DNA of 64,000 nt from Parvibaculum sp. GTDB lineage: Bacteria > Pseudomonadota > Alphaproteobacteria > Parvibaculales > Parvibaculaceae. This document shows, in pieces, positions 41,362-62,939 of this stretch (position 1 is its first letter; each line of letters opens with the position of its first letter). Position numbers and translations under genes: made by a program. The DNA lies in contig JAEPQD010000002.1 in assembly GCA_017642695.1 (NCBI GenBank), positions 62,001-126,000 of the forward strand, in the 5' to 3' direction. The notes beneath the pieces are model-generated. The model made no database searches and was not told where the DNA came from. It saw only the letters and a list, made by a program, of their open reading frames with translations.

Positions 41362-41423
41362 CTGTCGTCAACATTGTGGATTTGACGCTTGCAGATACCG
41401 AGGCATTCCATCGTGGGTCCGAC

Positions 41424-42482: not shown

Positions 42483-42813
42483 GGCCGATGGCCGCATGGG
42501 AGTTTTGACTGTTTTCGTTAAGCACGACAGATACCGGGAAGCGTCGGTTGGTGCCCCAAGTTGTTGAGGAGTCAAACAGGGTACCTACTTTATATAGAAG
42601 GCCTCCAGCTTCCTTGTTCCGGGGCGGCAAGTTGAGAATTTGAAGCCGGGTGTCTTCGGCAGGTTTTGTGACCTTGGGAGAGAGGATAGACTTCTGTCCG
42701 ACAGAAGGGTTATCTGCCCTGGTTTCGAGAGTAAAACAGGCTGGCCGGCCATATGTGGGGTTTGCGTACGGCAGAAGCTGGTTCTGTTCGTGTGATCTTT
42801 TGGGGGTTCACCG
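42483..42813 (+). promoter_or_regulatory. 331-bp intergenic region with a 17-bp palindrome, likely promoter of the WcaJ-like gene
   Basis: Somewhat AT-richer than its flanks and without a credible gene. CTTCTGTC-C-GACAGAAG (42691-42707) is a perfect 8+1+8 palindrome, about 107 bases before the ATG at 42814. An AT-rich TTTATATAG (42590-42598) could be a -10 region. GGGGG stands before the downstream start. No promoter can be fixed with certainty. Confidence 0.5.
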
Positions 42814-44340
42814 ATGCGGAGGTTTGGGGAGAGACCGGACGACGATGTCGTCTTCGGGGCTTCCGTACACTCACGTGAAGGGGTCTCCGCCGACGCGGCA
42901 AAGGCGCCGCCCGGAGACAACGCGACGCGGCAGGGAAGTGGCGAGCAAGCACTGATTTCCAAGCGTGTGATCGCCGACCTCATGATGTGCGTAGATGGTG
43001 CGGTGATCTTCGGTGCGGCCGTGCTCGCGAAGTGGGGTTATATCAATCTCCATCTCGGTGCTCCGGTCGGCTCTGCGCCCTACGCTGTGGTGGCGGTCGT
43101 TGGCGCGGTCGTCAGTGTCGTGATGTTGCGATATCGCGGGCTATACCAGTTTCACGTGCTGAGCCATGCCCGGGGCCAGGCCGGGCGTGTTGTTTTTGGC
43201 CTTTTTGCGACCGCTCTTGCACTGATGGCCGCCGGCTATCTTCTCAAGATCTCGGAAGACTATTCGCGTGTCTGGTTCGCGCTCTGGTTTGCACTTTCGA
43301 CGGTTGCTGTTCTGACCCTGCATCTGGTGGGCGCGCGCATCCTGCAGTGGTGGGGAGCGCTTGGATGGTTCTCCCGGCACGTTGTCGTTTACGGAAGCGG
43401 GGAAATCGCCGAGAAGCTGATACGAAAGGTCGGCTCGACCTCTATGAACCTTCGCGTCGTTGGCGTCTTCGATGACCTGAGAAACGGGGAGAGTCCCGAG
43501 GTGCCGGTACGCGGTGGGCTTTCCGATCTCATCGCGTTCGGCCAGAGGCATCGTGTCGACGAAGTGCTGATCGCCATGCCTCTCACGGACGAATTGCGAA
43601 TTGCGAACCTTGTGGAACAGCTGTCGCTTCTGCCGTCGGATATCAGGATCTGTCCGAGCTCGACGAGCTTTCGAATTCCTCCCAAGGGTTTGCTCAACTA
43701 TCAGGGCCTGACAGTTCTGGAGCTCGAGCGGCGTCCGCTGGATGACTGGGCGCCCATCATGAAGAATATCGAGGACCGTGTGCTTGGCGCCTTGCTGCTG
43801 GTCGGCCTTGCTCCCCTTCTTCTCCTAATCGCTGTTGCTATCAAGCTGGACAGCAGGGGCCCGGTCATCTTCAAGCAACGGCGGCATGGTTTCAATCACG
43901 AGGTTTTCAACGTCTACAAGTTTCGAACGATGTATGTGTGTGAGGATGGCGAGACGACCCTGAAACAGGCGACACGTCACGATCCTCGCGTTACCAGGGT
44001 CGGACGGTTTCTTCGCAAGACAAGCCTCGACGAGTTGCCACAACTCGTCAACGTCCTCAAAGGCGATATGTCGCTTGTCGGTCCACGGCCGCATGCGCTT
44101 TCGCACAACGAGTATTATTCAAGTGTTCTCGCTCGGTATGCGAACCGTCACAAGGTAAAACCCGGTATGACTGGCTGGGCGCAGGTGAACGGCTATCGCG
44201 GCGAAACGGGCACGCCAGAGAAGATGCGCCATCGGGTTGAGCACGACCTTTACTATATCGAGCACTGGTCGGTCTGGTTCGATCTGAAGGTTCTCGCGAT
44301 GACGCCGTTCTATGGGTTTATCGGACGCAATGCATTTTGA
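42814..44340 (+). CDS. Undecaprenyl-phosphate glucose phosphotransferase (WcaJ/GumD type)
   Basis: A 508-aa initiating transferase that puts the first sugar phosphate (usually glucose 1-phosphate) onto undecaprenyl phosphate. Four N-terminal membrane helices (about 55-75, 88-105, 122-142, 152-170), a Rossmann-like middle domain ('[20 protein letters not shown]') and one more helix at about 325 lead to the catalytic domain with '[23 protein letters not shown]', '[23 protein letters not shown]' and '[17 protein letters not shown]'. All catalytic motifs are intact. A second, WbaP-like initiator is encoded at 49231. Confidence 0.92.
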
Positions 44341-44360
44341 TGTTTCGCCGCTTCTTTAAT

Positions 44361-45251
44361 CTAAGCGCGAATTAGTTTTTCAAGAACGGGGCGGAACTTC
44401 GGTTCGATATCGGACCGGCTGAGTGCGATCGCCACGTTGGCGGCGAGATAGCCGATCTTGTCGCCACAATCGTAAGTGGTGCCCTCGAAACGATACGAGA
44501 AGAAGTCCTGCTCTGCGAGCAGGGCGATCATCGCGTCGGTCAGCTGTATCTCTCCCCCGGCCCCCGGCTTCTGCGTCTCCAGTTTTGCAAATATTTCCGG
44601 CTGCAGGATGTAGCGTCCTGAGATGATGAGGTTTGAAGGTGCATCCTCGATCTTCGGCTTTTCCACCATGCCGGTGATCCGGTGCGTTTGATTCCCCAGA
44701 TCTTCTGTGAGGGCGAGGACGCCGTAGCGGTTTACGTGTTCGTGCGGGACTTCCTCGGCCGCAATTATATTGCCGCCATGCTTGCTGTAGGTGTCAATCA
44801 TCTGCGCGAAACAGCCGCGTTTTCCGTGGATGAGCATGTCGGGAAGAGCGAGGGCAAAGGGTTCGTCGCCGACGATATCGCGTGCGCACCAGACGGCATG
44901 GCCGAGGCCCAGCGGCTCCTGCTGGCGAACGAAGCTGGCAGCGCCCGCCGCCGGGCGGCTTGCTTTCAGCATTTCGAATTCGGCCGTTTTTCCTCTCGCC
45001 TTCAGAGTCGCTTCAAGCTCGTAGGCTAGATCGAAGTGGTCCTCGATGGCGCCCTTTCCCCGGCCGGTGACAAACACGAAATGCTCTATTCCCGCCTCGA
45101 TCGCTTCGTCAACGGCATATTGAATGACCGGCTTGTCCACGACGGTCAGCATTTCCTTGGGGATGACCTTGGTGGCCGGAAGGAAACGGGTGCCGAGGCC
45201 GGCTACGGGAAAAACGGCTTTGCGGACTTTCTTGGCGGATGCGGTATTCAT
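44361..45251 (-). CDS. galU: UTP-glucose-1-phosphate uridylyltransferase
   Basis: A 296-aa enzyme making UDP-glucose. 'KAVFPVAGLGTRFLPATKVIPKEMLTVVDKPVIQYAVDEAIEAGI' is the full GalU start, 'QQEPLGLGHAVWCAR' and 'VEKPKIEDAPSNLIISGRYIL' follow, then 'GGEIQLTDAM'. The ATG at 45251 is chosen; the frame is open to 45503 but without conservation. It supplies Ugd and UDP-sugar glycosyltransferases. It is convergent with the WcaJ-like gene and divergent from manC. Confidence 0.96.
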   Translation of the reverse strand: MNTASAKKVRKAVFPVAGLGTRFLPATKVIPKEMLTVVDKPVIQYAVDEAIEAGIEHFVFVTGRGKGAIEDHFDLAYELEATLKARGKTAEFEMLKASRPAAGAASFVRQQEPLGLGHAVWCARDIVGDEPFALALPDMLIHGKRGCFAQMIDTYSKHGGNIIAAEEVPHEHVNRYGVLALTEDLGNQTHRITGMVEKPKIEDAPSNLIISGRYILQPEIFAKLETQKPGAGGEIQLTDAMIALLAEQDFFSYRFEGTTYDCGDKIGYLAANVAIALSRSDIEPKFRPVLEKLIRA

Positions 45252-45524
45252 GAGATTGAGGTGCTCTTGGCAAGGCATGTCGACAACGCATGACGATAGG
45301 TCAGGTTTCGCATTTCTGGTCCATTGCAGCAAGATGAGGTCCCGGCCGAATTCCGGATTCTTCGGGGCCTTGCGGTTGCCCTCCGGGATTGGCGAATCTC
45401 GCCGGAATCCGGGCCCGGTTAACCCAAATCCGGCCTGCGGGGTGAAAACCCCAGGGCGTTCCTTTAATATCGGATACAAGCCGCTTTGAAGGCGGCGGTA
45501 CATGACAAGGGTTCAAGGGCGCGC

Positions 45525-46958
45525 ATGATCTATCCGGTCATTCTTTCCGGCGGTGTGGGGTCGAGACTCTGGCCGACCTCCCGGGCGCTCTATCCAAAGC
45601 AGTTGCTGCCGCTCGTGTCGGAACGCACCATGCTGCTCGAAACGGCGCTCCGGGTGTCGGGCGGCGAGCGGTTTGCCGATCCCATCATCGTGTCCAATGA
45701 CGAGCATCGCTTCATCATTGCTCAGCAAATGCGCGATGCTGGAATTACCCCCCTTGCTCATATCCTGGAACCGCAAGGCCGCAATACGGCACCCGCTGCT
45801 GCCGCTGCTGCCGCTTTTGTTCGGGCCCATGATCCGGAAGGCGTTCTGCTCGTTCTGCCCGCCGATCATCACATCGCCGACATCGAAGCGTTTCGTGATG
45901 CGGTCTCCCGGGGGGCTGCGCTCGCGGAAGCGGGCAAGCTGGTGACATTCGGGATCCTGCCGTCGGGCCCCGAGACCGGATATGGATATGTGAAGCGAGG
46001 TACAGAGCTTGGTGGTGGCAATGCCTTCGTCGTGGAACGCTTTGTCGAAAAGCCCGATCTCGAAACCGCGCAATCCTATCTCGCCGAAGGCGGCTATGAC
46101 TGGAACGCCGGTATTTTCATGTTCCGGGCGGATGTGATCCTCGAGGAAATGCAAACCCATTGCCCGGAGATTGCCGCCTGTGCGAGCGAAGCCGTCGTGA
46201 AAGGTGCCCGCGATCTCGATTTTCTGAGACTCGACCCGGATGCCTTTGCCGCCTGCCCGTCGGATTCCATCGACTATGCAGTCATGGAGCACGTTTCAAG
46301 TGCGGTCGTCGTGCCGGTGGATATGGGCTGGAGCGACATCGGCTCATGGTCGGCGCTTTGGGAAATCGGCGAGAAGGATGAACAGGGCAATGTTCTCGCG
46401 GGTGATGTCCTGGCGGAAGACACGCATGATTGTTTTATCCGCGCGGAAGCCGGTCTGGTTGCGGCCGTGGGACTTGAAAACATGATCATTGTCGAGACGG
46501 GCGATGCGCTTCTCGTTGCAGCGCGGGATCGCGTCCAGGATGTGAAGAAAGTCGTCGAGCGGCTTGCAGCAGCCGGGAGATCGGAGCATCAGGCGCATAG
46601 CCGGGTTTATCGGCCATGGGGCTTCTACGAGAGCCTCGACTCCGGTGACCGGCACCAGGTGAAGCACCTGATGGTTTATCCAGGGGCGGCACTGTCCCTG
46701 CAGATGCACCGGCATCGCGCAGAACATTGGGTCGTCGTGAAGGGCTGTGCCGAAGTGACCATCGGCGACACGGTGAAGAACCTGCAAGAAAATGAGTCCA
46801 CATATATCCCCATCGGTACCAGGCACAGGCTCGCCAATCCGGGTAGCGAACCCTTGAGCATTATCGAGGTACAGTCCGGTTCCTATCTCGGTGAGGACGA
46901 TATCGTGCGCTTCGACGATGTATACGGGCGTGACGTAAAAAAACCTGCGGCGGAATAG
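45525..46958 (+). CDS. manC: Mannose-1-phosphate guanylyltransferase / mannose-6-phosphate isomerase
   Basis: A 477-aa bifunctional enzyme. 'IYPVILSGGVGSRLWPTSRALYPKQ' is the guanylyltransferase signature, 'TFGILPSGPETGYGYVKRG' and 'VERFVEKPDLETAQSYLAEGGYDWNAGIFMF' follow, and the C-terminal type II isomerase cupin has 'RPWGFYESLDSGDRHQVKHLMVYPGAALSLQMHRHRAEHWVVVKG' and 'YIPIGTRHRLANPG'. ATG 45525 follows AAGGG. Makes GDP-mannose for Gmd and mannosyl transfer. Confidence 0.96.
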   Translation: MIYPVILSGGVGSRLWPTSRALYPKQLLPLVSERTMLLETALRVSGGERFADPIIVSNDEHRFIIAQQMRDAGITPLAHILEPQGRNTAPAAAAAAAFVRAHDPEGVLLVLPADHHIADIEAFRDAVSRGAALAEAGKLVTFGILPSGPETGYGYVKRGTELGGGNAFVVERFVEKPDLETAQSYLAEGGYDWNAGIFMFRADVILEEMQTHCPEIAACASEAVVKGARDLDFLRLDPDAFAACPSDSIDYAVMEHVSSAVVVPVDMGWSDIGSWSALWEIGEKDEQGNVLAGDVLAEDTHDCFIRAEAGLVAAVGLENMIIVETGDALLVAARDRVQDVKKVVERLAAAGRSEHQAHSRVYRPWGFYESLDSGDRHQVKHLMVYPGAALSLQMHRHRAEHWVVVKGCAEVTIGDTVKNLQENESTYIPIGTRHRLANPGSEPLSIIEVQSGSYLGEDDIVRFDDVYGRDVKKPAAE

Positions 46959-47096
46959 TTCCCCGCTCCTGAAGTATCAGTTCTGTTTTCGCCCTTTCTC
47001 TCTCCATCTCGGAGGTTGATGGGATGGGAGAAGAGCCCCGCATGGTGTGGCCGTCGTCAAGCCGGTGCGGGAGAGAGATGATATACGGAGATACCG

Positions 47097-47864
47097 GTGA
47101 AAATCGCGGAGCGATGGTTCGAGCACAAGGATATGGGCGACGGCGTCACGCTTTTGTGGGAGCCGCATATCCATCCCTTCATCCGCTGCAACATCTGGCA
47201 TGTCGCCGGACGCGACCGCGATCTGCTGATCGACACAGGGACCGGTGTCGCCTCGCTCAAAACGGAAGTCGCGCAGCTCACGGAAAAGCCGCTGACCGCG
47301 CTTGCTACGCATATCCATTACGACCATGTCGGGTCGCTGCATGAGTTCGACACACGCCTCATGCACCCGATCGAGGCACCGGGCATGGAGGATTACAGCG
47401 AATTCGCGACGCTCGACGTTTCAGGGTTTCCACGGGAGTTGCGCGATGCCCTTGCAGGGTACGGGCTCGCGGAGGGGAATGCGAAGCTGATAGACGCATT
47501 GCCCTATGAAGGCTACGACATCGAGACCTACGAAGTCCGTTCTGTTGCGGTAACCGGTACCGTCGGCGAGGGCGACGTGATCGATCTGGGCGACCGGCAT
47601 TTCTCGGTCTTTCATCTGCCGGGCCACTCACCGGGGTCGATCGGTCTGTTCGAGGCCGCCACGAAAACCCTCTTCTCAGGCGATGCGATCTATGACGGAC
47701 CTCTGCTCGACGAGTTGCCAGGCTCCGATATCGCGGTCTATCGCGAAACGATCAAACGACTGCGCGACCTCGACGTGACTATCGTCCATGGCGGTCACGA
47801 TCCGAGCTTTGGGCGCGAGCGGATGATCGAAATCTGCGACGCCTATCTCGCGCTTCGTGGGTGA
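47097..47864 (+). CDS. MBL-fold metallo-hydrolase
   Basis: A 255-aa metallo-beta-lactamase-fold protein. The zinc motif T-H-I-H-Y-D-H-V-G (72-79), 'VFHLPGHSPGSIGLF', 'FSGDAIYDG' and the final 'VHGGHDPSFGRERM' give a complete metal set. The start GTG 47097 follows GGAGA. Substrate unknown; it looks like a housekeeping thioesterase or lactonase-type hydrolase and is unlikely to be part of glycan synthesis. It converges with the next gene, 3 bases between stops. Confidence 0.88.
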   Translation: MKIAERWFEHKDMGDGVTLLWEPHIHPFIRCNIWHVAGRDRDLLIDTGTGVASLKTEVAQLTEKPLTALATHIHYDHVGSLHEFDTRLMHPIEAPGMEDYSEFATLDVSGFPRELRDALAGYGLAEGNAKLIDALPYEGYDIETYEVRSVAVTGTVGEGDVIDLGDRHFSVFHLPGHSPGSIGLFEAATKTLFSGDAIYDGPLLDELPGSDIAVYRETIKRLRDLDVTIVHGGHDPSFGRERMIEICDAYLALRG

Positions 47865-47867
47865 GGC

Positions 47868-48749
47868 TCAGGCCGCGGTCGCGGCGTGCGCAGGTTCTTC
47901 GCCATGCTCCGCCTTCCATTCGGCCACCAGCTCGCGATTGTCGTGCTGCCAGGGATGGAAGCTGGGCTTGAACCAGTCCAGGTAGGCGGGAATCGATTTC
48001 CGCAACGGCCCAGGATTGATCCAAAGGTAGTGAGCCAGCCGGCCCCAGGCGCGCGGGCTCCACTGCATGCGCTCGACCGCCAGAAGGTTGCGGATATGCA
48101 GGAACAGATTGATGTTGAAGAAGATCGTTGCCATCAGCAATGAGCGTACGCGCAGGAAGTAGAATGTACCAGGTCTGGTGACGGCCTTCAGTACATCGAA
48201 GGCGACCGCCTTGTGCTCGGTTTCCTCCACCGCGTGCCACATCCAGAGTTCGTACTCCTCCGGTGAGGCGTGTTCTGCGAAGGTCTCGCGCTCGCGCAGC
48301 AGGTGATCGGCGAGGACGGCGGTGAAATGCTCAAGCGCGACCGTCTGGCCGAGCTGCGCCTTTTTCGGCATCAGAAAACGCGCGAGCTTCTGCATGCGCG
48401 CCGAACGGCGTTCGAGTTTCCACATCGGGTAGCCCTGCGCGGCGATGCGGTCGTTATAGGCCTGGTGCTCGCGCGAATGGATTGCTTCCTGTCCCAGAAA
48501 CTCCCGGATTTCGCCTTGCAGCTTCGGATCGGTGATCTTGTGTTTCTGATAGCGCACTGTGTCGCAGAAGAAGCGCTCGCCCACCGGGAACATCGCCGAG
48601 AGGGCGTTGAAATAGGCAGTTACCACCGGATCGCCATTGTACCAGTGGCGGCGTTCGCCTGCCCGGAACTGGCGATTGCGTGTGGTGAAGGCCAGTTCGC
48701 TGCCACTCTGGCTCGATGCGGCGCGGTCGATTTCGTGGGCGACAGACAT
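47868..48749 (-). CDS. PF10118-type 'metal-dependent hydrolase' (ferritin-like di-iron candidate)
   Basis: A 293-aa protein of the COG3687 family. 'RRHWYNGDPVVTAYFNALSAMFPVGERFFCDTVRYQK' is the family start; 'FLGQEAIHSREHQAYN' and 'WHAVEETEHKAVAFDVLKAV' contain the paired E-x-x-H motifs expected of a four-helix di-iron site. Annotated in databases as a predicted hydrolase, it looks rather like a ferritin-like oxygenase or oxidase; the reaction is unknown. Such genes are frequent in hydrocarbon-using alphaproteobacteria. Confidence 0.85.
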   Translation of the reverse strand: MSVAHEIDRAASSQSGSELAFTTRNRQFRAGERRHWYNGDPVVTAYFNALSAMFPVGERFFCDTVRYQKHKITDPKLQGEIREFLGQEAIHSREHQAYNDRIAAQGYPMWKLERRSARMQKLARFLMPKKAQLGQTVALEHFTAVLADHLLRERETFAEHASPEEYELWMWHAVEETEHKAVAFDVLKAVTRPGTFYFLRVRSLLMATIFFNINLFLHIRNLLAVERMQWSPRAWGRLAHYLWINPGPLRKSIPAYLDWFKPSFHPWQHDNRELVAEWKAEHGEEPAHAATAA

Positions 48750-48930
48750 GGGGCACTCCTTTTCCCTGCGGCTTCCCCCTACATTTTTGTCAGTTGAGCC
48801 TCATCTTCAATGGCAGGCCACAAAATCTCACAATTCAACGCCGGAACCTGGGCTCTTGGTTCGTATCTATGTTTCCGGTGGGCACAGACGCTCCGGGCAC
48901 CGGAATTATGAAAAAAGGCGAACGGCGCTC

Positions 48931-49227
48931 ATGAAAATCAAGGTGGGACGGTACCGCATCCCCGTCCCGAAAAGCCGGACAGGCCGTATCGGTGCCGGGG
49001 TCGTCCTGGTCGTTCTGGGGTGTATCCCGGGGCCGCCGGGGCCTGCCGCCATTCCGGTCGGCCTTACGATTCTCACCCTCGACCATCCACGCGGCCGACG
49101 CTGGCGGCGCATCGTCGTCGTTCGGGTGGGCCGCCGCTGGCAGGCGATACAGGCTAAAAGAGAGGTGCGCCGCGCAATGAAGCGCGACGCAGCTGTAATC
49201 AAACCGGACCTTGAAGCCGAGGGGTGA
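48931..49227 (+). CDS. Small PGPGW-like membrane protein
   Basis: A 98-aa protein. One hydrophobic segment (about 20-50) contains G-C-I-P-G-P-P-G-P, close to the PGPGW motif (PF09656) of small putative membrane proteins, followed by a strongly basic helical tail. The ATG at 48931 starts the conserved part; the frame is open further upstream. Function unknown. It converges with the WbaP-like gene (3 bases between stops). Confidence 0.65.
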   Translation: MKIKVGRYRIPVPKSRTGRIGAGVVLVVLGCIPGPPGPAAIPVGLTILTLDHPRGRRWRRIVVVRVGRRWQAIQAKREVRRAMKRDAAVIKPDLEAEG

Positions 49228-49230
49228 GCC

Positions 49231-50793
49231 TCAGCAGGCGCCGCGGCGCAGCAGCACGGCGGGCAAGGTCTTGAACATGATCGCGATGTCCTGCCAGAGC
49301 GACCAGTTCTTCACATACCAGGCGTCGAGCTCCACACGGCGCATATAGGTCGTGTCGTTGCGGCCGCTCACCTGCCAGAGACCGGTGATGCCGGGTTTGG
49401 CGGAGAGATAGTATTCCGCGTCCTCGCCATATCGCAGCACTTCCGTGTAGGTGACGGGACGGGGGCCGACCAGGCTCATCTCGCCGCGGATCACATTGAT
49501 GAGCTGCGGCAGCTCGTCGAGGCTCGTCTTGCGCAGGAAAGCGCCAACGGCCGTTACGCGCGGATCGTTCCGCAACTTCTGGTCGCGTGCCCATTCAGCG
49601 GCGGCTTGCGGATCGTTTTCCAGCACGTCCTTCAGGATAGCGTCGCTGTCGACGTGCATTGTGCGGAACTTGCGGCAGAGGAATTCGCGACCCTTCTCGC
49701 CGACGCGGCGATGGGCGAAGAAGGCGGCGCCGCCATCACGGCGGATAAGCGCGGAAACGGCCCAGAAGAAGGGCATAAGAGCGAACAGCGCAGCGCTTGC
49801 GACCACGAGATCGAAGCTGCGCTTCAGAATGCGCGCCATCGGCCGGTTCAGATTGTCGGCCAGCGTCAGCATCACGAGGTCGTGGCTGAAGAAGTTGCCG
49901 GCCTCAAGCGCCATCACGCCAATGCCCTTCACGGGCGGCACAATGGAAAAGGCGATGCGGGCACGGTGCAGGGCGCGCAGGATGTGGTCGAGGCTCGCCA
50001 TTTCCTCAGGCGAGGGGGCGAGGACCACGAAGCGCGCGTCGTAGCGCTCGCAGGCGAGCTTCAACGCTGCCGAAAGCTGGCCGCCCGCCTGATAGAGAAG
50101 GCTGTTCGGATTGGACGCGTTGCGCTCGGAGGCGAGGTCGGCCAGGTCGATCGCACCGGCGACCTCGTAGCCGAGATAGGGCTCGTCCTCAAGCACCTGG
50201 GCGGCTTCATCCGTGTTCTCTTTCGAGCCAATCAGGAGAACGGGCGCGGTCCAGCTTCCGTACCGCTTCAGGACATGTCTCATCGCGATACGGGTAACGG
50301 GCACGAACGCCAGTGCCCAGATCCAGGCCTGGAGCATCCAGAGACGGGAGAAATAGTCCTTGGTCAGATACTGGAGAAAGCCGTCAACAAGCGCGACAAG
50401 GGCGATGCCCTTCACGATTTCCTTGGTTTCGGCCCAGAAGGGGGTGCGCTTGGAATAATGGCCCTTCGCCGCCCACCACAGGATCGGCAGCATGAGCAGG
50501 AAGCCGATACGGACAAGCCGGCTCGTCAGTTCGCCGGCCTCAAGTGCCGCGAATTCCGTATTGAGAACCTGCACATTGATGCCGAGAGCGATGGAACCCG
50601 CGATGATTTGCGCCAGTGCCAGTGCTCCGAGGTCGCCGACCAGCAACATGAAGCGGTCTGCGAGGGGCGTCAGCCGTGTGCCGGCGCCGGTTTCCTCCCG
50701 GTAGGTGCTCTCGTAGCCTTCGAGGGGAGCGGCAACGGGGGTTGCGGTGCCAAAGGCCGGGATGTGTTTTTCGAGTGCGGTCACGATACTCAC
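49231..50793 (-). CDS. WbaP-type undecaprenyl-phosphate sugar phosphotransferase
   Basis: A 520-aa initiating transferase of the WbaP subgroup. Four or five N-terminal membrane helices, a middle nucleotide-fold domain ('[34 protein letters not shown]') and the catalytic domain: '[26 protein letters not shown]', '[24 protein letters not shown]', '[15 protein letters not shown]', ending '...[22 protein letters not shown]'. WbaP itself loads galactose 1-phosphate. It is sequence-distinct from the WcaJ-like protein at 42814, so the region encodes two initiation routes. Confidence 0.92.
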
Positions 50794-50936
50794 GCCAACT
50801 TGTGTCCGAATGCGACAGTTGGTTCGTGAGGTCGCAAGTTGTGCGCCAGCCGGTTTCGTCCCGTTTTGGGCGAGTGAACAGGGTAAACGCCGTCTTAAAA
50901 TCCGGAAGCGTTCAGCGTGGCGACGGCCGTATCATC

Positions 50937-51602
50937 TCACCCGAAGATGCCGCGGATATCCGCGCGCACGATCTGGCCGAGCGCGGCGAATATCCGCATG
51001 TTCGCCCGGAGGCGCCGGTCGAAACGCGGTGCATCCTGCCGTCGTGTGCCGCGCACGGGAAGCTGGCGAAAGGTCGTGCCTCTGCGAAGCGAGTTGATTG
51101 CGAGTTCCGTGCCGATGGAGTCCGTGTGGTCGAAGCCCCCGTTTTCCGCGACGAGCTGCAGGTCGTAGCCCTTCATGCCGCAGAGAATGTCGTGCACGCC
51201 GAAGCGGATACGTACGTAAAGCCCCATCACGACTTCCGCGAAGCGCTGCTTGTGCGGGCGAACGCCGAGAACGAGGGGCACGCCTTCGTCAGCGAGCAGG
51301 GCGCTGAATTTCGCGACGAGTGCGGGGTCGTGTTCGCCGTCGGCATCCATCGTGATTGCAAAAGCGAAACCCCGCGCGAGGGCTTCCTCGAAGGCGCGGT
51401 TCAGTGTGCCGTCATAGCCGAGATTGGTCTTGTTGCGAATGACGATGGCACCTGCGCCTGCGGCTTCTGTACCGGTTTCGTCCGGCGAGGCGTCGTCCAC
51501 CACGATCACTTCCGCATATTCGCGCGCCGCCTTCACGACGCTGCCAATTGTCGCCGCCTCGCGGAAAGCCGGAATGAGGATGGCTAAGCGAGGTCGGTCC
51601 AT
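50937..51602 (-). CDS. Family 2 glycosyltransferase (DPM1/polyprenyl-type)
   Basis: A 221-aa soluble GT2 domain. 'RLAILIPAFREAATIGSVVKAA', 'VIVVDDASPDETGTEAAGAGAIV', 'NLGYDGTLNRAFEEALARG' and 'ITMDADGEHDP' (D-A-D metal site) are the family motifs. The arrangement and the absence of C-terminal helices resemble dolichyl/polyprenyl-phosphate mannose synthases. It is the last gene of the minus-strand nonulosonate-like block and overlaps the synthase gene by 19 bases. Confidence 0.88.
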   Translation of the reverse strand: MDRPRLAILIPAFREAATIGSVVKAAREYAEVIVVDDASPDETGTEAAGAGAIVIRNKTNLGYDGTLNRAFEEALARGFAFAITMDADGEHDPALVAKFSALLADEGVPLVLGVRPHKQRFAEVVMGLYVRIRFGVHDILCGMKGYDLQLVAENGGFDHTDSIGTELAINSLRRGTTFRQLPVRGTRRQDAPRFDRRLRANMRIFAALGQIVRADIRGIFG

Positions 51603-52660
51603 AGCAGTTCCTTCCCGGCCTCCTTTGCCGAAGCGAGTCGTTTGCCGATGATGTTCGAAAGAGCATCCGGCGATACTGCTCCCTCAGGGCAGGGACGGAG
51701 TGCCTCGAGGTGATCCTGCGTCAGCGTTGTCCCGGCATCGAGCGCGGTCTTGAGGCGGAGTGCGCGCCGTTGGATAACAACCGTCTCCGTCTCGTTTTTC
51801 TCGATCCGCTTCACGCCGTCGCCGAGTGCGGCTTCGAGCTCGCGCGTGGCATCGACCATCGCCCGCCATGTCACCGGATTGAGTGCGAAGGAATGGTCCG
51901 GTCCTTCGCGGGAATTGTCGTCCGTAAAGTGCTTCTCGACCACGCGCGCGCCGAGCGCCACTGCGCCGAGGACGGCGGAATGTCCGGGCGTATGATCCGA
52001 GAAGCCGAGCACCATGCCGGGCCAGCGCGCCGCGAATGTCTGCAGCACGCGCAGATTCACATATCTGAAATTTTCGAGACTGCCCGTGTAGTTCGTATTG
52101 CATTGCATGAGGCAGAGCTGGCGGTTGTGACGCAGAATGAGTTCGGCCGCGGCCTCGACCTCCGCCATCGACGCTGCGCCAGTCGCAAGCAGAACGGGCT
52201 TTCCTGTCCTTGCTATGTGCTCGATTTCTTCGTGAAAGGTTATGTCCCCCGAACCGATCTTGAAGGCGGGAACGATGTCGCAAAACATGTCCACAGCCTC
52301 GATGTCGTAAGGCGTGGTCATGAAATGGATGTCGGCCTTTCGGCAGGTCTCGACCAGTTCATCCGTCCAGTCGCGGCGCGTATGATACTGATCGTAGACT
52401 TCGACAACGGACTTCTTCCACTTCGCCTGATGCGAGATCTGTCCTTTCGGCCCCTCGAATCCGACCTTGCTCACGATCCTGTCTGCAATGAAGTGCTGGA
52501 ACTTGGCGCAGTCTGCGCCAGCTTCCTTTGACTTCCAGATCAGGTCCTTCGCGCGCTCGAGATCGCCGTCATGATTGGCGGCGATGTCGGCGATGAAATA
52601 GCTTGGAACATCAAGCGCGATTTCACGCGTTCCGATGCGGAGCGAGCTGTCGTAGGTCAT
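51584..52660 (-). CDS. NeuB/SpsE-like nonulosonic acid synthase
   Basis: A 358-aa protein. The NeuB domain (about 20-270) shows 'YFIADIAANHDGDLERAKDLIWKSKEAGADCAKFQ', 'TTPYDIEAVDMF', 'FKIGSGDITF', 'LATGAASMAEVEAA', 'MQCNTNYTG' and 'LGFSDHTPGHSAVLGAVALGARVVEKHFTDD', all typical of enzymes that condense PEP with a hexosamine to make a nine-carbon sialic-acid-like sugar. A SAF domain (about 295-355) follows. Substrate unclear: the usual UDP-sugar epimerase/hydrolase partners are absent here. ATG 52660 overlaps the reductase gene by 38 bases. Confidence 0.88.
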   Translation of the reverse strand: MTYDSSLRIGTREIALDVPSYFIADIAANHDGDLERAKDLIWKSKEAGADCAKFQHFIADRIVSKVGFEGPKGQISHQAKWKKSVVEVYDQYHTRRDWTDELVETCRKADIHFMTTPYDIEAVDMFCDIVPAFKIGSGDITFHEEIEHIARTGKPVLLATGAASMAEVEAAAELILRHNRQLCLMQCNTNYTGSLENFRYVNLRVLQTFAARWPGMVLGFSDHTPGHSAVLGAVALGARVVEKHFTDDNSREGPDHSFALNPVTWRAMVDATRELEAALGDGVKRIEKNETETVVIQRRALRLKTALDAGTTLTQDHLEALRPCPEGAVSPDALSNIIGKRLASAKEAGKELLWTDLA

Positions 52661-53525
52661 GGGCCGATATCTCGTTGTAGCGGTGAAGAACGGATGCAAC
52701 CACTTCGGGGAGTTCAGGCAGTTCTCGACCGAGAAGCGTTTCGGCGCGGGTTACGTCGAGGCCGAGGCAGTGGGCACGCGTCGTGGCGAGACCACGCACG
52801 GAACCGGATGTTGCAGTAGTGAGCTTGAGATCGAGCTGCCGGGCGATCTCGCGCACAAAATCTTCCTTTGTATACACCTCGCCTGCGGCAAGGTTGTAGA
52901 GGCCGGTTGCATCTGCCCCCGCCATGTCGAAGGCGGCGCGCGCGAAGTTTCCGACATCGATCGAAGACGACCACGCATCGGCGAAGAGCTGGGCGGGCCG
53001 GTCGTTCAGAACCACATCGATTGCCCATTCGGCAAGGGTCTGCTTCTCCCAGCCGCGAATGCCGACAATGCTGGTGCGCAGCACAAGGGCATTCGCCGCT
53101 GTCAGGGCGAATGCCTCGCCCGCAAATTTCGTTCGGGCATATTCGTTGACCAGAGAGACGGACGTCATTTCGTCATGCGCTTCTCCGTCACCTTCCGTGA
53201 AATACTGATCCGTCGAGACATGAATGAGTTTGCCGCCGCTTTCGCGCGCCCAGGTCGCGAGAAAGGCGAGGGGGCGTGCGTTCATGCGCCAGGCATCGAG
53301 AGGATTGCGCTCGCAGGCTTCGATGTCCGTGAGAGCAGCGCAGTTGAAAATCATGTCGGGATTCTCGGTGGCAAGCACCTGTCGCAACGCCTTCTCGTCG
53401 GCAATGTCGAGCGCTATCTCTGCGTTTCGCCGGGCCGCTTCCCGCAATGCATGACCCCGCTGCCGCGCTTCTTCCGCGACCGCCCGGCCAAGCAACCCGG
53501 TGCTGCCCAACAGAAGAAGCTTCAT
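52623..53525 (-). CDS. RmlD-like NAD(P)-dependent sugar reductase
   Basis: A 300-aa SDR. 'KLLLLGSTGLLGRAVAEEA' is the cofactor site, 'DMIFNCAALTDIEACERNPLDAWRMN', 'HVSTDQYF' and 'NEYARTKFAGE' (Y-x-x-x-K) carry catalysis, and 'VLRTSIVGIRGWEKQTLAEWAID' follows. It resembles RmlD but differs from the window's true RmlD, so it probably reduces a different 4-keto sugar, perhaps the product of the PseB-like dehydratase two genes upstream. Overlaps with both neighbours mark a single operon. Confidence 0.85.
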   Translation of the reverse strand: MKLLLLGSTGLLGRAVAEEARQRGHALREAARRNAEIALDIADEKALRQVLATENPDMIFNCAALTDIEACERNPLDAWRMNARPLAFLATWARESGGKLIHVSTDQYFTEGDGEAHDEMTSVSLVNEYARTKFAGEAFALTAANALVLRTSIVGIRGWEKQTLAEWAIDVVLNDRPAQLFADAWSSSIDVGNFARAAFDMAGADATGLYNLAAGEVYTKEDFVREIARQLDLKLTTATSGSVRGLATTRAHCLGLDVTRAETLLGRELPELPEVVASVLHRYNEISAHDLRQLAPHRNA

Positions 53526-54572
53526 TCAGCTGCGCCTTTCGAACTGGAGAAGCATATGCACCTCGGAGGAGAGGTGTTTCCGGTCCAACGCTTCCTGCAT
53601 GGCGTCTATCGCAGGCTTCATCATGCCTGTCCAGAGCTCTGCGGCGCCCGTTGTCTTGTCTGAAGCAGACAGCCGGACCAGGATACTCCGGTAGAGATCC
53701 ATCATGTCGCCACCGAACCACCATTCCGCTACCCGGTTCATGCCGAATTCCCGGCAGGTCCAGTCTAGCGAGGATTCCGAATAGAGGTGAGTATGTCCAC
53801 CGGAGAGATGCCGCTGCATCACGTCCTGGAAGGCCGCTTCTATGAAGACGCTCGGGCTGAAAAGCGGAACGGAGATATAGAGATAAGAAACGGCCTTATT
53901 GTCCCTCAGCGCGGCGAGAAGTTCGCGTGGCCGCTGCAGGTGCTCAAGTACGCCGATCAATGAGACGACCTTCGCCTCCACCTCGCCCGCGAGCGAAACC
54001 GTATCGCCCAGAGCATGGGTGCAGACGACCGCTTCCCCCACCATCTCGTTGGCGAGGGCAGCTTGCGTTTCCGAAACCTCGAAACCGCGAATATCGGTGA
54101 GCCCGGTGGCGCGAAGCGCGGAAACGAAATAGCCGGAGCCTGCGCCGAAGTCAGCATAGGAAAGCGTAGCGGGGTTTTCGCCTTTTGCAGCAAGGGCATC
54201 GACGAGAAAGCGCGCCTTCGGCACGTAGATGTCGTCCGTGCGCTTGCGATAGGCCTCCCGGTCGGCAGAGCTGTAGTCGCGCGCATAGGCGGCGCCGCCT
54301 GCTTCGACATAGAGTTCCGAGCAGAAGGCGTCGCTGTCCTCGAATGCACCATTGAGGTGGCCGCAGCGCGGACAGACGAGATAGTCGACGCCAAGTTTCG
54401 AGAAGCTGATCTCGCTTATCGGGCCGTCGCAGGCCTTGCAGCGCACACGCTTCGGCTGTTCGGTATAAAGCGCCGCCAGTCCAATCTGGCGCTGCAGAAG
54501 CGCTGCGTTCTCGTCGAAGAAGTGCGTCTTGTGAGAAAGCAGAGGTGCGCTCGGCTTGCCGTATTTCTGCAT
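53526..54572 (-). CDS. SAM-dependent methyltransferase with N-terminal zinc ribbon
   Basis: A 348-aa protein. Four cysteines (C-K-A-C near 45 and C-P-R-C near 67) form a zinc-ribbon-like start as in sugar C-methyltransferases, then a class I domain with 'LSYADFGAGSGYFVSALRATG' (motif I), 'DIRGFEVSETQAALANEMVG' and 'VVSLIGVLEHLQRP'; 'HTHLYSESSLDW' follows. Its stop directly abuts the next gene. It may methylate the nonulosonate-like sugar or its carrier-linked form. Confidence 0.85.
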   Translation of the reverse strand: MQKYGKPSAPLLSHKTHFFDENAALLQRQIGLAALYTEQPKRVRCKACDGPISEISFSKLGVDYLVCPRCGHLNGAFEDSDAFCSELYVEAGGAAYARDYSSADREAYRKRTDDIYVPKARFLVDALAAKGENPATLSYADFGAGSGYFVSALRATGLTDIRGFEVSETQAALANEMVGEAVVCTHALGDTVSLAGEVEAKVVSLIGVLEHLQRPRELLAALRDNKAVSYLYISVPLFSPSVFIEAAFQDVMQRHLSGGHTHLYSESSLDWTCREFGMNRVAEWWFGGDMMDLYRSILVRLSASDKTTGAAELWTGMMKPAIDAMQEALDRKHLSSEVHMLLQFERRS

Positions 54573-54603
54573 GATGGACCTCCCCAGCCCAGCGAAGCCC
54601 GTG

Positions 54604-55320
54604 TCAGCGCTGACGCCGCACGGCGTTCAGCTCCTGAAGGTGCTTGTTCTCCTCACAGATCTTCAGCGTCTCCGTCCATGGTGGAATGCCGTCACCGAGC
54701 AGAGGAAAGAGCGCGCGGCAGAATTGAAGATCTTCGGGATAATCCAGCGTCCAGCGCAGCTTGCCGAGGTCGTCGCTCGGGCCCTCCAGTGACACGCGCT
54801 TGATCTCCGGCGCGCGCCGCAGCCAGGGGGTCACATGTTCACGGTCGTAGGGCTCGTGAGCTTCCTTCCAGTCGCGTTCCATCGCCGTCCAGGTGAAGGC
54901 TTCGCAGTCGAGCCCGTGCGGATAGCGGTGGACAAAATTATTGGCGGCATAGTCGACGGAAACGTCTCCGGTAACGGCGGAGAGAACCTCGCCGCAGAGG
55001 CCGGGGTCGATCAGCGGGCAATCGCTCGTTACGCGCATGATGACGTCCGCGCCGAGATCGCGCGCAGCGGTGTAGTAGCGGTCGAGTACATCATGTTCCG
55101 AGCCGCGTGCCACGGTGGCGCCGCATGCCTCGGCTTCCCGCGCAACGGGCTCCTGCTCCGGTCCTTCCGGCACGGCGCAACAGACGATGTCGATGCCGGG
55201 AATGGCGGCACAGCGTGTCAGCACATGCCACAGCACGCTTCTTCCCGCCACATCTTCCAGCACCTTGCCGGGCAGGCGTGTCGAGGTCATGCGTGCCTGA
55301 ACGATGACGACATTTGTCAT
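54604..55320 (-). CDS. SpsF/NeuA-like cytidylyltransferase-domain protein
   Basis: A 238-aa nucleotidyltransferase of the spore-coat SpsF type. 'VVIVQARMTSTRLPGKVLEDVAGRSVLWHVLTRC' is the family start; 'ARGSEHDVLDRYYTAARDLGADVIMRVTSDCPLIDPGL' and 'HRYPHGLDCEAFTWTAMERDWKEAHEPYDREHVTPWLRR' complete it. It should activate a sugar acid with CTP, as needed after the NeuB-like step. The ATG at 55320 is chosen; the frame is open upstream. One operon with the genes on both sides. Confidence 0.87.
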   Translation of the reverse strand: MTNVVIVQARMTSTRLPGKVLEDVAGRSVLWHVLTRCAAIPGIDIVCCAVPEGPEQEPVAREAEACGATVARGSEHDVLDRYYTAARDLGADVIMRVTSDCPLIDPGLCGEVLSAVTGDVSVDYAANNFVHRYPHGLDCEAFTWTAMERDWKEAHEPYDREHVTPWLRRAPEIKRVSLEGPSDDLGKLRWTLDYPEDLQFCRALFPLLGDGIPPWTETLKICEENKHLQELNAVRRQR

Positions 55321-55345
55321 GTCCGTTACCGCCTTGCGGAGACGC

Positions 55346-56395
<1,050 letters not shown>

Positions 56396-58136: not shown

Positions 58137-59828
58137 TCAACTTTCATTCGGCTGCTGCGCGAGCCTGTCGAGAAAGCGATAGAGCGCGATGCCGGCAAGG
58201 ATCGCGACGATCCCCATGACGACCGTCCCGTCGATATTCAAGGGAATGAAGGGGTCGGCGGAGACCAGCTTCGCCTTGCCGTGGATCATCTCGTACTGGC
58301 GGTCCTTGAATGGCCAGACGGCGAGCAGCGATCCGCAGAGAACGCCGATCACGGTGAGCATGGTGCGGCGGTAGTAGCGTTCGAGCACCCATGAGATGGC
58401 ACGCGAAAAGATCAGCGCGCCGGTCACGACCCCGCCCGCAAGCGGCAGCAGGAACGACATGTCGAGGCGGCCCAGCGCGTCGATCGCGTCGGTATACTTG
58501 CCGAGAACAAGGAGAACGAAGGAGCCGGAGATTCCCGGCACCAGCATGGCGGCAATGGCGGCCATGCCGCAGAGAAAAACGAACCAGGCGGCGTCCGGCG
58601 TGTCGACCGGGACGAGAATGGCGGCGAGGAGTCCGAGGCAGGTGCCGAACGCGATCCAGCCTGCCCCTCGCGCGCCGCCTGTTTCGACATGGCCGAGAAG
58701 CCCCACGATGGAAGCTGCGATGAGGCCGAAGAAGAAGCCGAAGGTCATTTCCGGGAAGCCCGTGACGAGCAGGGAGAGCGGCACGACGCGGCTGAAGATG
58801 ATGAGAGAGAGCAGCGCGCCCACCCCGATCGGGAGGACGAAGAGGAGGTCGATATGGCGCGCGGCGGCTGCGAATTCGAACCGTCTCAGATTGCCGAGCA
58901 ATTCCCGGTCGAAATGTGCAATGGCGGAGATCAGGCGTTTGTAGACGCCGAGGATCAGCGCCATCGTGCCGCCGCTGACGCCGGGCACGAGATCGGCGGC
59001 GCCGATGCACATGCCGCGCAGCGTCTGTTTCGCCGGATGATAGTTCTCGCGGCCCTCGACGCTCAGCCGCTCGGTCAGGCCTTCCCAGCGGGCGAGGATA
59101 CCGTCGACGGGCAGGCGCGCCAGACGGTAGAGCCGGAAGACGGCCGGCGTTCCCGTCGCGAGCGCCAGCGTTGCGAGTGCGGCCACGCCGCCGCCGGCGA
59201 TCGTGTCTGTCGTCCATTCCGTGCCCGTGGCGATGCGAGGCAAAGCGAGAAGCACGGTGAATGCCAGCGCGGCAAGACCGAGGCGGGGCCCAAAGCCCAT
59301 CCAGAGAAGGACCGTCAGGGAGCCGGTCAGCACCGCATGGCCCGCCGGGTAAGGAGACAACGGGTTCAGGCCCGCATCCGACCAGGGCAGGAAGGTGGAT
59401 ATGGCATTGTGTCCGGGCAGCGACGCCGAGGGCGAGGGACGATGAATGTCCGGCAGGGCGATATGCAGGACGAACAGCACCACGGAAACGGCGAGCACGC
59501 TCAGCCCCAGGGCCATGTCGTGGCGGAAGCCTTGTCCCTTTTCATGACCAAGGCGAACGAGGAAGATCGCGAGGAGGGTCAGCGCCAGGAAGGCAGCGAA
59601 TCGAGGCTCGCATCCGATTGCCCATAGGGCCGCCGCTCCGCTGCTTTGCGGGATGGTACCGTTCAGCAGGCGGAAGATGGCGCTGTCCGCCGCGTCCCAC
59701 ATCCGGGCGAGCGGCGAAACGCTCCATGAGGCGGCAAGCGCCAGCGCGGCGGCGAGCCAAAGCGCAAGCCGGCCGGGGCGCCAGACCGCCGACATCGGGA
59801 ACATGCCGGGTTCCCCTTGCCTTTCCAT
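58137..59828 (-). CDS. PAP2-like domain fused to DUF368 (polyprenyl-phosphate translocase family)
   Basis: A 563-aa membrane protein of two modules. Residues about 20-235 form a PAP2-like phosphatase fold with P-A-G-H (161-164, motif 2) but degenerate motifs 1 (H-R-P at 129-131 without the upstream Lys) and 3 (R198-x5-E204-x3-D208, Glu where the nucleophilic His is expected). Residues about 268-550 are a complete DUF368 domain with its inverted-repeat signatures V-P-G-V-S-G-G (281-287) and P-G-I-S-G (431-435). DUF368 (PopT) proteins were shown to translocate undecaprenyl phosphate. ATG 59828 follows GGAG; the frame extends to 59885. The fusion suggests a combined lipid-carrier recycling device. 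Confidence 0.85.
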   Translation of the reverse strand: MERQGEPGMFPMSAVWRPGRLALWLAAALALAASWSVSPLARMWDAADSAIFRLLNGTIPQSSGAAALWAIGCEPRFAAFLALTLLAIFLVRLGHEKGQGFRHDMALGLSVLAVSVVLFVLHIALPDIHRPSPSASLPGHNAISTFLPWSDAGLNPLSPYPAGHAVLTGSLTVLLWMGFGPRLGLAALAFTVLLALPRIATGTEWTTDTIAGGGVAALATLALATGTPAVFRLYRLARLPVDGILARWEGLTERLSVEGRENYHPAKQTLRGMCIGAADLVPGVSGGTMALILGVYKRLISAIAHFDRELLGNLRRFEFAAAARHIDLLFVLPIGVGALLSLIIFSRVVPLSLLVTGFPEMTFGFFFGLIAASIVGLLGHVETGGARGAGWIAFGTCLGLLAAILVPVDTPDAAWFVFLCGMAAIAAMLVPGISGSFVLLVLGKYTDAIDALGRLDMSFLLPLAGGVVTGALIFSRAISWVLERYYRRTMLTVIGVLCGSLLAVWPFKDRQYEMIHGKAKLVSADPFIPLNIDGTVVMGIVAILAGIALYRFLDRLAQQPNES

Positions 59829-61520: not shown

Positions 61521-62939
61521 ATGGCGCAGGCCATCTTCGATGAAATGGGCGCGCCCGGCGGCGAAATCCGCCAGGCTTACAAGACCTTGCAGGCATGGCT
61601 CGGCGAGACGCCGCCTGAAATACTGACGCTCAGGCGCGAGGAGGCCGAAACCTTCTTCCGCCGCATCGGCATCACCTTCGCCGTCTATGGCGAGGGCGGC
61701 GATCCGGAGCGCATCATCCCCTTCGACATCATTCCGCGCATTCTCGAAGCGGCGGAGTGGCAACAGATATCCGACGGGCTTGTGCAGCGGGTCCGGGCGC
61801 TCAATGCCTTCATCGCCGATGTCTACGGCGCCCAGGAAATCCTCAAGGCCGGTATCGTGCCGCGCGACCAGGTGATCCTGAACGACACCTATCGCTACCA
61901 GATGCAGGGTGTTTCCGTTCCCCACAACGTCTTCACGCATATTGCGGGCATCGACATGGTGCGTGTCGGGCCGGAAGAATTCTACGTGCTGGAAGACAAT
62001 TGCCGTACGCCGTCGGGTGTCTCCTACATGCTGGAGAACCGCGAGATCACGATGCGGCTCTTCCCCGATCTCTTCTCCCGCTACAACGTCGCTCCGGTGG
62101 ACCACTATTGCGACGAGCTGATGCGCACGCTCACCTCCGTGGCGCCGCGCAATTGCCAGGGCGAACCGACCGTCGCCGTGCTCACGCCCGGCATCTACAA
62201 CAGTGCCTATTACGAACATTCCTTCCTCGCCGACCAGATGGGCGTCGAGCTCGTCGAGGGGCCGGACCTCTATGTCATGGACGACATCGTCTACATGCGC
62301 ACGACGCAGGGACCGAAGCGCGTCGATGTGATCTATCGCCGCGTCGACGACGAATTTCTCGATCCGCTGAGCTTCCGTCCGGATTCGGCGCTCGGCGTGG
62401 CGGGTCTGATGAGCGCCTACAGGGCCGGCAATGTGAACCTCACCAACGCCGTCGGTGCCGGCATCGCGGACGACAAGGCGATCTACACCTATGTTCCCGA
62501 GATGGTGAAGTTCTATCTCGGTGAAACGCCGATCCTGAAGAACGTGCCGACATGGCGCTGCAGCGAAAAGGATGACGCGCAATATGTCATCGAACACCTG
62601 CCGGAACTGGTCGTGAAGGAAGTTCACGGTTCCGGCGGCTATGGCATGCTGGTCGGCCCCAAGGCCACGAAGGAGGAGATCGAGGCGTTCGGTGCCCGTG
62701 TGAAGGCGGCACCGGAGAAGTACATCGCGCAACCGACGCTTGCGCTGTCCACCTGTCCGACCTTCGTCAACGAAGGCGTTGCCCCGCGCCATGTCGATCT
62801 CCGTCCTTTCATCCTGTCGGGCCGCGACATCAAGGTCGTGCCGGGCGGGCTCACCCGCGTTGCCATGCGCGAAGGGTCTCTCGTCGTCAATTCGAGCCAG
62901 GGTGGCGGCACGAAAGACACCTGGGTCTTGAAGGACTGA
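61521..62939 (+). CDS. Circularly permuted type 2 ATP-grasp protein
   Basis: A 472-aa protein of the DUF404/DUF407 ATP-grasp family. 'RIIPFDIIPRILEAAEWQQISDGLVQRVRALNAFIADVYG', 'HIAGIDMVRVGPEEFYVLEDNCRTPSGVSYMLENREI' and 'LVVKEVHGSGGYGMLVGP' (ATP-binding) are its hallmarks. It is the first gene of a conserved bacterial operon (ATP-grasp, alpha-E, transglutaminase, often the proteasome-like Anbu peptidase) thought to make and process an unknown peptide. The next gene starts 5 bases after its stop. Confidence 0.93.
   Translation: MAQAIFDEMGAPGGEIRQAYKTLQAWLGETPPEILTLRREEAETFFRRIGITFAVYGEGGDPERIIPFDIIPRILEAAEWQQISDGLVQRVRALNAFIADVYGAQEILKAGIVPRDQVILNDTYRYQMQGVSVPHNVFTHIAGIDMVRVGPEEFYVLEDNCRTPSGVSYMLENREITMRLFPDLFSRYNVAPVDHYCDELMRTLTSVAPRNCQGEPTVAVLTPGIYNSAYYEHSFLADQMGVELVEGPDLYVMDDIVYMRTTQGPKRVDVIYRRVDDEFLDPLSFRPDSALGVAGLMSAYRAGNVNLTNAVGAGIADDKAIYTYVPEMVKFYLGETPILKNVPTWRCSEKDDAQYVIEHLPELVVKEVHGSGGYGMLVGPKATKEEIEAFGARVKAAPEKYIAQPTLALSTCPTFVNEGVAPRHVDLRPFILSGRDIKVVPGGLTRVAMREGSLVVNSSQGGGTKDTWVLKD

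Follow-up and report, generated by a model that had tools for sequence, protein, structure and literature searches.

A protein of Parvibaculum in which a PAP2 domain is fused to a DUF368 domain is probably an active transporter with a dead phosphatase half, and the PAP2 fold seems to be kept mainly as a membrane scaffold; this is how its conserved and lost residues read against those of its relatives. The gene lies in the window (the whole stretch of DNA analysed, 64,000 nucleotides) as a stop-free frame on the minus strand, with the N-terminal PAP2 part in frame with the C-terminal DUF368 part and a GGAG just 5' of the ATG. Its features are the following:

58137..59828, minus strand: whole gene of the PAP2-DUF368 fusion, 563 amino acids, ATG at 59828 and stop at 58137-58139
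59133..59780, minus strand: LpxT-like PAP2 domain (by profile, Foldseek, motifs and LpxT homology), residues 17-232, presumably catalytically dead
59436..59462, minus strand: remnant of motif 1, IALPDIHRP, with Arg130-Pro131 kept and Ile123 where most intact relatives have Arg and the fusion L129 has Lys
59367..59372, minus strand: residues 153-154 of the AK[ED] loop, Gly-Leu here and Lys-Glu in intact relatives
59337..59348, minus strand: motif 2, PAGH, with His164 kept (sequence comparison)
59205..59237, minus strand: motif 3, RIATGTEWTTD, with Arg198 and Asp208 kept and His204 replaced by Glu (codon 59217-59219)
58281..59006, minus strand: transporter domain DUF368 (PF04018), which spans residues 275-516 and scores 238.1 bits where the cut-off is 26
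58965..58994, minus strand: first DUF368 signature, DLVPGVSGGT, intact (sequence comparison)
58518..58547, minus strand: second DUF368 signature, MLVPGISGSF, intact except for one Leu-to-Val change at residue 430 (sequence comparison)

The sequence-only reading had placed a PAP2-DUF368 fusion at this locus, without naming its strand, and had mentioned a frameshift or an assembly error as its possible source. The fusion is real, and such an error is ruled out, since all 23 DUF368 copies of the genus are fusions. The survey of homologues which that reading had proposed, for the fusion and for the His-to-Glu change, covered 27 genomes of the genus including the window's own, several of them incomplete. 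DUF368 is present in 16 of these genomes, every one of the 23 copies stands in a PAP2 fusion frame without internal stops (0/23), and Glu replaces the His in five proteins (L001-L005, the Glu group). One genome (G008) holds a copy of the window's gene with 91% identity. The fusions form the clade of the window's protein (L001-L016) and a paralogue clade (L017-L023).

In a sample of 385 genomes of the class, two score above the DUF368 cut-off and belong to this genus, and a third match stays below it. The phylum sample (398 genomes) and that of another class of the same phylum (the class of G582, 369 genomes), which overlap partly with the other samples and in which at most three candidates per genome were scored, gave 82 and 57 genomes that match the fusion profile somewhere; among the matches tabulated, both halves were found only in the window's own genome in the former, and the full fusion only in G863 (L129) in the latter. 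Longer DUF368 frames occur elsewhere with the profile match restricted to DUF368, for instance in G981 (687 aa), G1083 (442 aa) and G865 (432 aa). The 576-aa frame L115 was rejected as a fusion, because by eye its DUF368 starts with its own Met and the preceding stretch is unlike PAP2. Two loci considered as split PAP2-DUF368 operons (L130 and L132) were also rejected, as the PAP2 query had no match there and a different gene lies upstream.

The architecture has been described before, although the sequence-only reading knew of no description. According to excerpts of Sit et al. 2022 (PMC9876793), DUF368-PAP2, PAP2-DUF368 or DUF368-BacA proteins are encoded by several microorganisms, and the window's protein, with PAP2 followed by DUF368 in one open frame, has this dual-domain architecture in the same domain order as the PAP2-DUF368 proteins mentioned there. 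These excerpts make no mention of a loss of catalytic residues or of reciprocal decay, and none of the open-licence literature listings and excerpts searched describes a decayed PAP2 half in a DUF368 fusion. The DedA-PAP2 fusions (PA4011, excerpts of PMC12893004; also Sit et al.) likewise unite a transporter and PAP2 in one chain; they differ in the transporter family, and in PA4011 the order of the domains is opposite.

The assignment of the C-terminal half to DUF368 is unambiguous by sequence comparison. According to excerpts of PMC9876793 and PMC12826051, DUF368 proteins carry undecaprenyl phosphate back from the outer leaflet to the inner one. Like the DUF368/PopT/VCA0040 translocases, the window's protein has a full-length domain and both PG-S-G signatures; it differs from them by the additional N-terminal PAP2 domain and by scores below the NCBIfam equivalog cut-offs for PopT and VIBCH (NF052564 and NF052563, with scores of 205.1 and 101.1 bits where each model asks for 400). 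The DUF368 core, defined as the 63 positions conserved to at least 90% in 29 other DUF368 proteins, is matched by the window's protein at 51 positions, and at ten of the 12 misses the whole clade of 16 differs. Taken over all proteins, 808/1008 core cells are matched in the window's clade versus 262/441 in the paralogue clade. No solved structure related to DUF368 was found by sequence profile, and Foldseek gave no confident match for this half.

All seven proteins of the paralogue clade keep both PAP2 His; in the DUF368 core all seven have Gln for Asp279 and Ala for Gly435, and have lost Thr288 and Lys508. L129 has seven of the eight DUF368 core residues checked, the exception being 508; since Gln stands there too, the loss of Lys508 in the paralogue clade is not polarised.

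The PAP2 half is more divergent from its family profile. The PF01569 match at residues 130-224 scores 19.6 bits, and 25.2 bits in the genome search, both below the Pfam gathering cut-off of 27.2. The relatives L015 (36.6 bits), L017 and L025 exceed this cut-off, and the putatively dead relatives L004, L005 and L012 gave no PAP2 match at E 0.01. In an AlphaFold2 model that drew on 22 relatives besides the window's protein (mean pLDDT 81.3, pTM 0.75), the ten-residue blocks of the PAP2 half have pLDDT values of 81-94. A Foldseek search with the window's protein gave nothing at E < 0.001, the best match by E-value being a MATE transporter (probability 0.16), and the PAP2 half was matched to LpxE (6ebu; probability 1.00, E 0.074, target TM-score 0.49) and PgpB (5jki; probability 0.98, E 0.080). 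The model, these matches and the homology to LpxT described below indicate that the PAP2 fold is present, a fold alone being no proof of function.

Among the PAP2 families compared, alignment places this half with LpxT. The LpxT homologue L123 is 31% identical to it over 208 aligned positions (E 6e-20, two-sequence comparison) and 32% identical to L015, which has both His, over 215 positions. About half the length of L123 matches 5374 of 5426 E. coli genomes in a nucleotide search, and in the three E. coli records listed the matched DNA is annotated lpxT. The NCBIfam model for undecaprenyl-diphosphate phosphatase gave weak matches only, for L123 as well. LpxT (YeiU) is an undecaprenyl-pyrophosphate:lipid A phosphotransferase, according to excerpts of the literature. 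L123 and the intact fusion relatives share the motifs AK[ED]xSxxSFPGDH and PRxxAGAHWxTD. The window's protein, unlike LpxT, is without the loop Lys-Glu and the motif-3 His, and is fused to DUF368.

Motif 3 of PAP2 proteins reads Arg-x5-His-x3-Asp. In the window's protein Glu204 takes the place of this His, as the sequence-only reading had noticed, and the same reading was right that P-A-G-H is kept, with His164; the residues retained in this half are Arg130, His164, Arg198 and Asp208. The motif-1 Lys, whose absence had also been pointed out, is indeed missing in IALPDIHRP, which has no basic residue at that position, but it is not the best yardstick, since intact relatives mostly have Arg there. 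Among the six proteins of the same clade with both His, the position holds Arg in five and Tyr in L009, and by eye L123 has neither Lys nor Arg. In these alignments the loss of Lys-Glu in the AK[ED] loop is more telling.

A working bifunctional phosphatase-flippase, for which this reading of the motifs would be misleading, is very improbable. It could draw on the good confidence of the modelled fold and on the several motif residues that are kept. However, the motif-3 His is present in 30/30 other PAP2 loci fetched in the genus (out of a longer hit list), in L129 and in all 16 PAP2 sequences of the fusion type that have both His, and the PAP2 family score is below the cut-off.

By residue comparison, the loss of catalytic His is specific to lineages. 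Both His are found in six of the 16 proteins of the window's clade, and one or both are missing in the other ten; both are kept in the whole paralogue clade (7/7) and in the three adjacent stand-alone PAP2 genes. His164 is substituted by Ala, Tyr, Trp or Arg across the fusions, and His204 by Glu only, so that position 204 is His or Glu in all 23. The sequence-only reading had held that close homologues with the full motif set and simple phosphatase activity would count against it, and the homologues go half of this way: the His pair stands in the six proteins mentioned and the whole set in L129 (Lys123, Arg130, Lys153, His164, Arg198, His204 and Asp208), but one of the six, L009, has lost the motif-3 Arg198. 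On the DUF368-only tree the minimum number of changes is four for the dead or intact label, six for His164, three for His204 and four for Arg198; if the Glu group is treated as a single clade, which it is in the full-length tree, three losses are counted by eye. A back-up paralogue was tried as an explanation for PAP2 loss and showed no association (4/7 genomes with the paralogue vs 6/9 without).

Altered chemistry had been offered by the sequence-only reading and is scarcely to be expected; the PAP2 half would then still cleave, and either Glu204 or His164 would be its nucleophile. Glu204, Arg198, His164 and Asp208 are all present in the window's protein, which is what such a chemistry could use, but among the five Glu204 proteins the motif-2 His is missing in three and the motif-3 Asp in two; the loop Lys-Glu is gone and the constraint is relaxed.

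The decay is read as a general loosening of the putative substrate side of PAP2 that spares the membrane core. The 16 both-His sequences have 65 invariant positions, of which 42 are altered somewhere in the Glu group. A targeted loss of catalytic positions was considered and rejected, as 4/5 of them versus 38/60 other positions changed (Fisher p 0.65), and the absence of preferential loss points to general loosening and not to a marked loss of catalysis. Pairwise identity over residues 125-162 is 0.31 in three representatives of the Glu group versus 0.65 in ten intact ones. On the other hand, the helices at 163-179 (0.63 and 0.64) and 181-200 (0.57 and 0.57) are unchanged. The motif-3 block PRIATGTEW ranks first of 208 nine-residue windows in the same three representatives and second in the ten intact ones.

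These patterns bear on the possibility, unlikely though with some merit, that the PAP2 half acts without catalysis as a sensor or gate, which would bind a lipid phosphate or pack on the transporter and control it, a fixed Arg198-Glu204 ion pair replacing the phosphate-bound active site. Position 204 is restricted to His or Glu and position 164 is variable; Glu204 is accompanied by Arg198 in 5/5 proteins, and Arg198 is gone in all five proteins that lack His164 but have His204. The first rank of the motif-3 block and a PAP2 omega well under 1 fit as well. However, the Glu group shows erosion of motif 1, of the AK[ED] loop and of the greater part of residues 125-162, the block is nearly as conserved in intact proteins and may be plainly inherited, L009 is without Arg198 although it has both His, and the pairing of Arg and Glu rests on few lineages. 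The sequence-only reading had proposed binding without cleavage by a receptor or gate. A half that binds or has a structural part but does not cleave is the likeliest reading, and a retained non-catalytic role is favoured because omega is well below 1 and the motif-3 Glu block is best conserved; a specific pyrophosphate receptor is disfavoured, because the conservation between motifs 1 and 2 is mostly gone. The preferred reading is still that of a non-cleaving domain which would serve mainly as scaffold.

Maximum-likelihood omega, with ranges from 24 codon resamplings each, shows that the constraint on PAP2 is relaxed yet not gone and that DUF368 is still constrained. In the Glu group omega is 0.156 (0.099-0.231) for PAP2 and 0.059 for DUF368, and in L008, L010 and L011 it is 0.200 (0.115-0.280) and 0.057. 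The six both-His proteins of the same clade have 0.081 (0.063-0.102) for PAP2 and 0.055 for DUF368 (0.031-0.084, the DUF368 range of the window's clade). The respective values are 0.089 (0.059-0.123) and 0.088 (0.063-0.109) in the paralogue clade, 0.085 and 0.048 in L013-L016 alone, and 0.122 and 0.058 in a mixed group (L006 and L012 with L007 and L009); the three stand-alone PAP2 genes have 0.100. The PAP2 ranges of the Glu and the both-His groups just touch, and the DUF368 ranges of the two clades overlap. The pairwise comparison of the window's gene with that of G008 gives 0.265 for PAP2 and 0.114 for DUF368. Among eight pairs with a putatively dead PAP2 half, L003-L005 is reversed (PAP2 0.104, below DUF368 at 0.138), and L010-L011 has too few changes for a pairwise omega to be read.

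An omega so far below 1 means that the PAP2 domain cannot decay freely. A pseudogene in decay, or an artefact of assembly, to which the fast evolution of the PAP2 half might point, deserves next to no credence: there are no stops in the 23 fusions, DUF368 omega is about 0.06, and the neighbours are conserved.

The two clades seem to have decayed in opposite halves, the sister paralogue appearing as a mirror image with PAP2 intact and the DUF368 core eroded. With one tree fixed throughout, 0.901 changes per site in PAP2 and 0.087 in DUF368 fall on the stem that leads to the Glu group; for the stem of the paralogue clade the respective numbers are 0.143 and 0.732. The Glu group has a support of 100 in the full-length tree and of 60 in the DUF368-only tree without outgroup, and the window's clade has 42 in the full-length tree rooted with L129, a distant outgroup (end branch 1.76 on the DUF368 tree). 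Neither the window's clade nor the Glu group is recovered in the rooted DUF368-only tree, where the respective constraints are not rejected (p 0.125 and 0.263). It is conceivable, and rather doubtful, that a duplicated bifunctional phosphatase-flippase gave one transporter regulated by a pseudophosphatase through the Arg198-Glu204 motif-3 block and one phosphatase with a pseudo-transporter half.

The preferred reading, of an active transporter with a pseudophosphatase scaffold, would have the following course. A PAP2 phosphatase of the LpxT-like kind would have fused with an undecaprenyl-phosphate transporter of the DUF368 family into a bifunctional ancestor. An intact fusion would probably first act on the periplasmic side, where it would remove (or transfer) the outer phosphate of undecaprenyl pyrophosphate, and would next return the undecaprenyl monophosphate to the cytoplasmic side. 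The fusion gene would have been duplicated in Parvibaculum, and the copy at the window's locus would have kept its transporter half intact and lost catalytic residues of the phosphatase half in several lineages. The window's protein would now most likely be an undecaprenyl-phosphate importer with a non-cleaving pseudophosphatase domain.

The link between undecaprenyl pyrophosphate hydrolysis and carrier return is an open question in the field, and a pair with opposite decay, if true, is a natural one for asking how the two are coupled. A genus with both-His, dead-phosphatase and eroded-transporter fusions offers natural variants for testing coupling by channelling, and the same variants could test whether the PAP2 fold has a job beyond catalysis. 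They are also a warning that domain hits alone do not justify naming such proteins phosphatases.

In the window, a divergent lytic murein transglycosylase lies upstream of the fusion gene, and an MHYT-type histidine kinase and PseB lie downstream, PseB being two genes away. Of the 16 genomes that carry this clade, 15 have a homologue of the transglycosylase within 4 kb of the fusion on the same contig, the exception being G024 with its 5-kb contig, and the kinase or PseB adjoins the fusion in several of the genomes. By these shared neighbours the fusions of the clade are taken as orthologues at one locus.

The surface-glycan region at 41376-56383, in which ten frames were scanned, includes a GDP-mannose dehydratase, a ManC-like protein, NeuB and a cytidylyltransferase, and also two Bac_transf sugar transferases within about 17 kb of the fusion; PseB belongs to this region too. 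The Bac_transf family loads sugars onto undecaprenyl phosphate. Two DedA-family genes, two further PAP2 genes and one BacA that exceeds the cut-off lie elsewhere in the genome, and for this reason the cell may do without the PAP2 half of the fusion. In the same genome, at L165:428-2590, a frame of 720 aa ends C-terminally in a DedA/VTT domain, and its N-terminal part is phospholipase D-like by eye.

Stand-alone LpxT-like PAP2 genes with both His are located about 150 bp 3' of a paralogue-clade fusion on the same strand in G010, G012 and G022 (L021-L026). Nine genomes without the fusion have a full match to the transglycosylase; in two of them (L157 and L158, of G015 and G020) the transglycosylase adjoins an MHYT kinase (39% identical), and the fusion gene is absent between the two. 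A circularly permuted ATP-grasp protein is encoded 3' of the transglycosylase at 61521-62939 of the window, and a match to it adjoins all 15 transglycosylase loci of fusion-carrying genomes (L135-L149).
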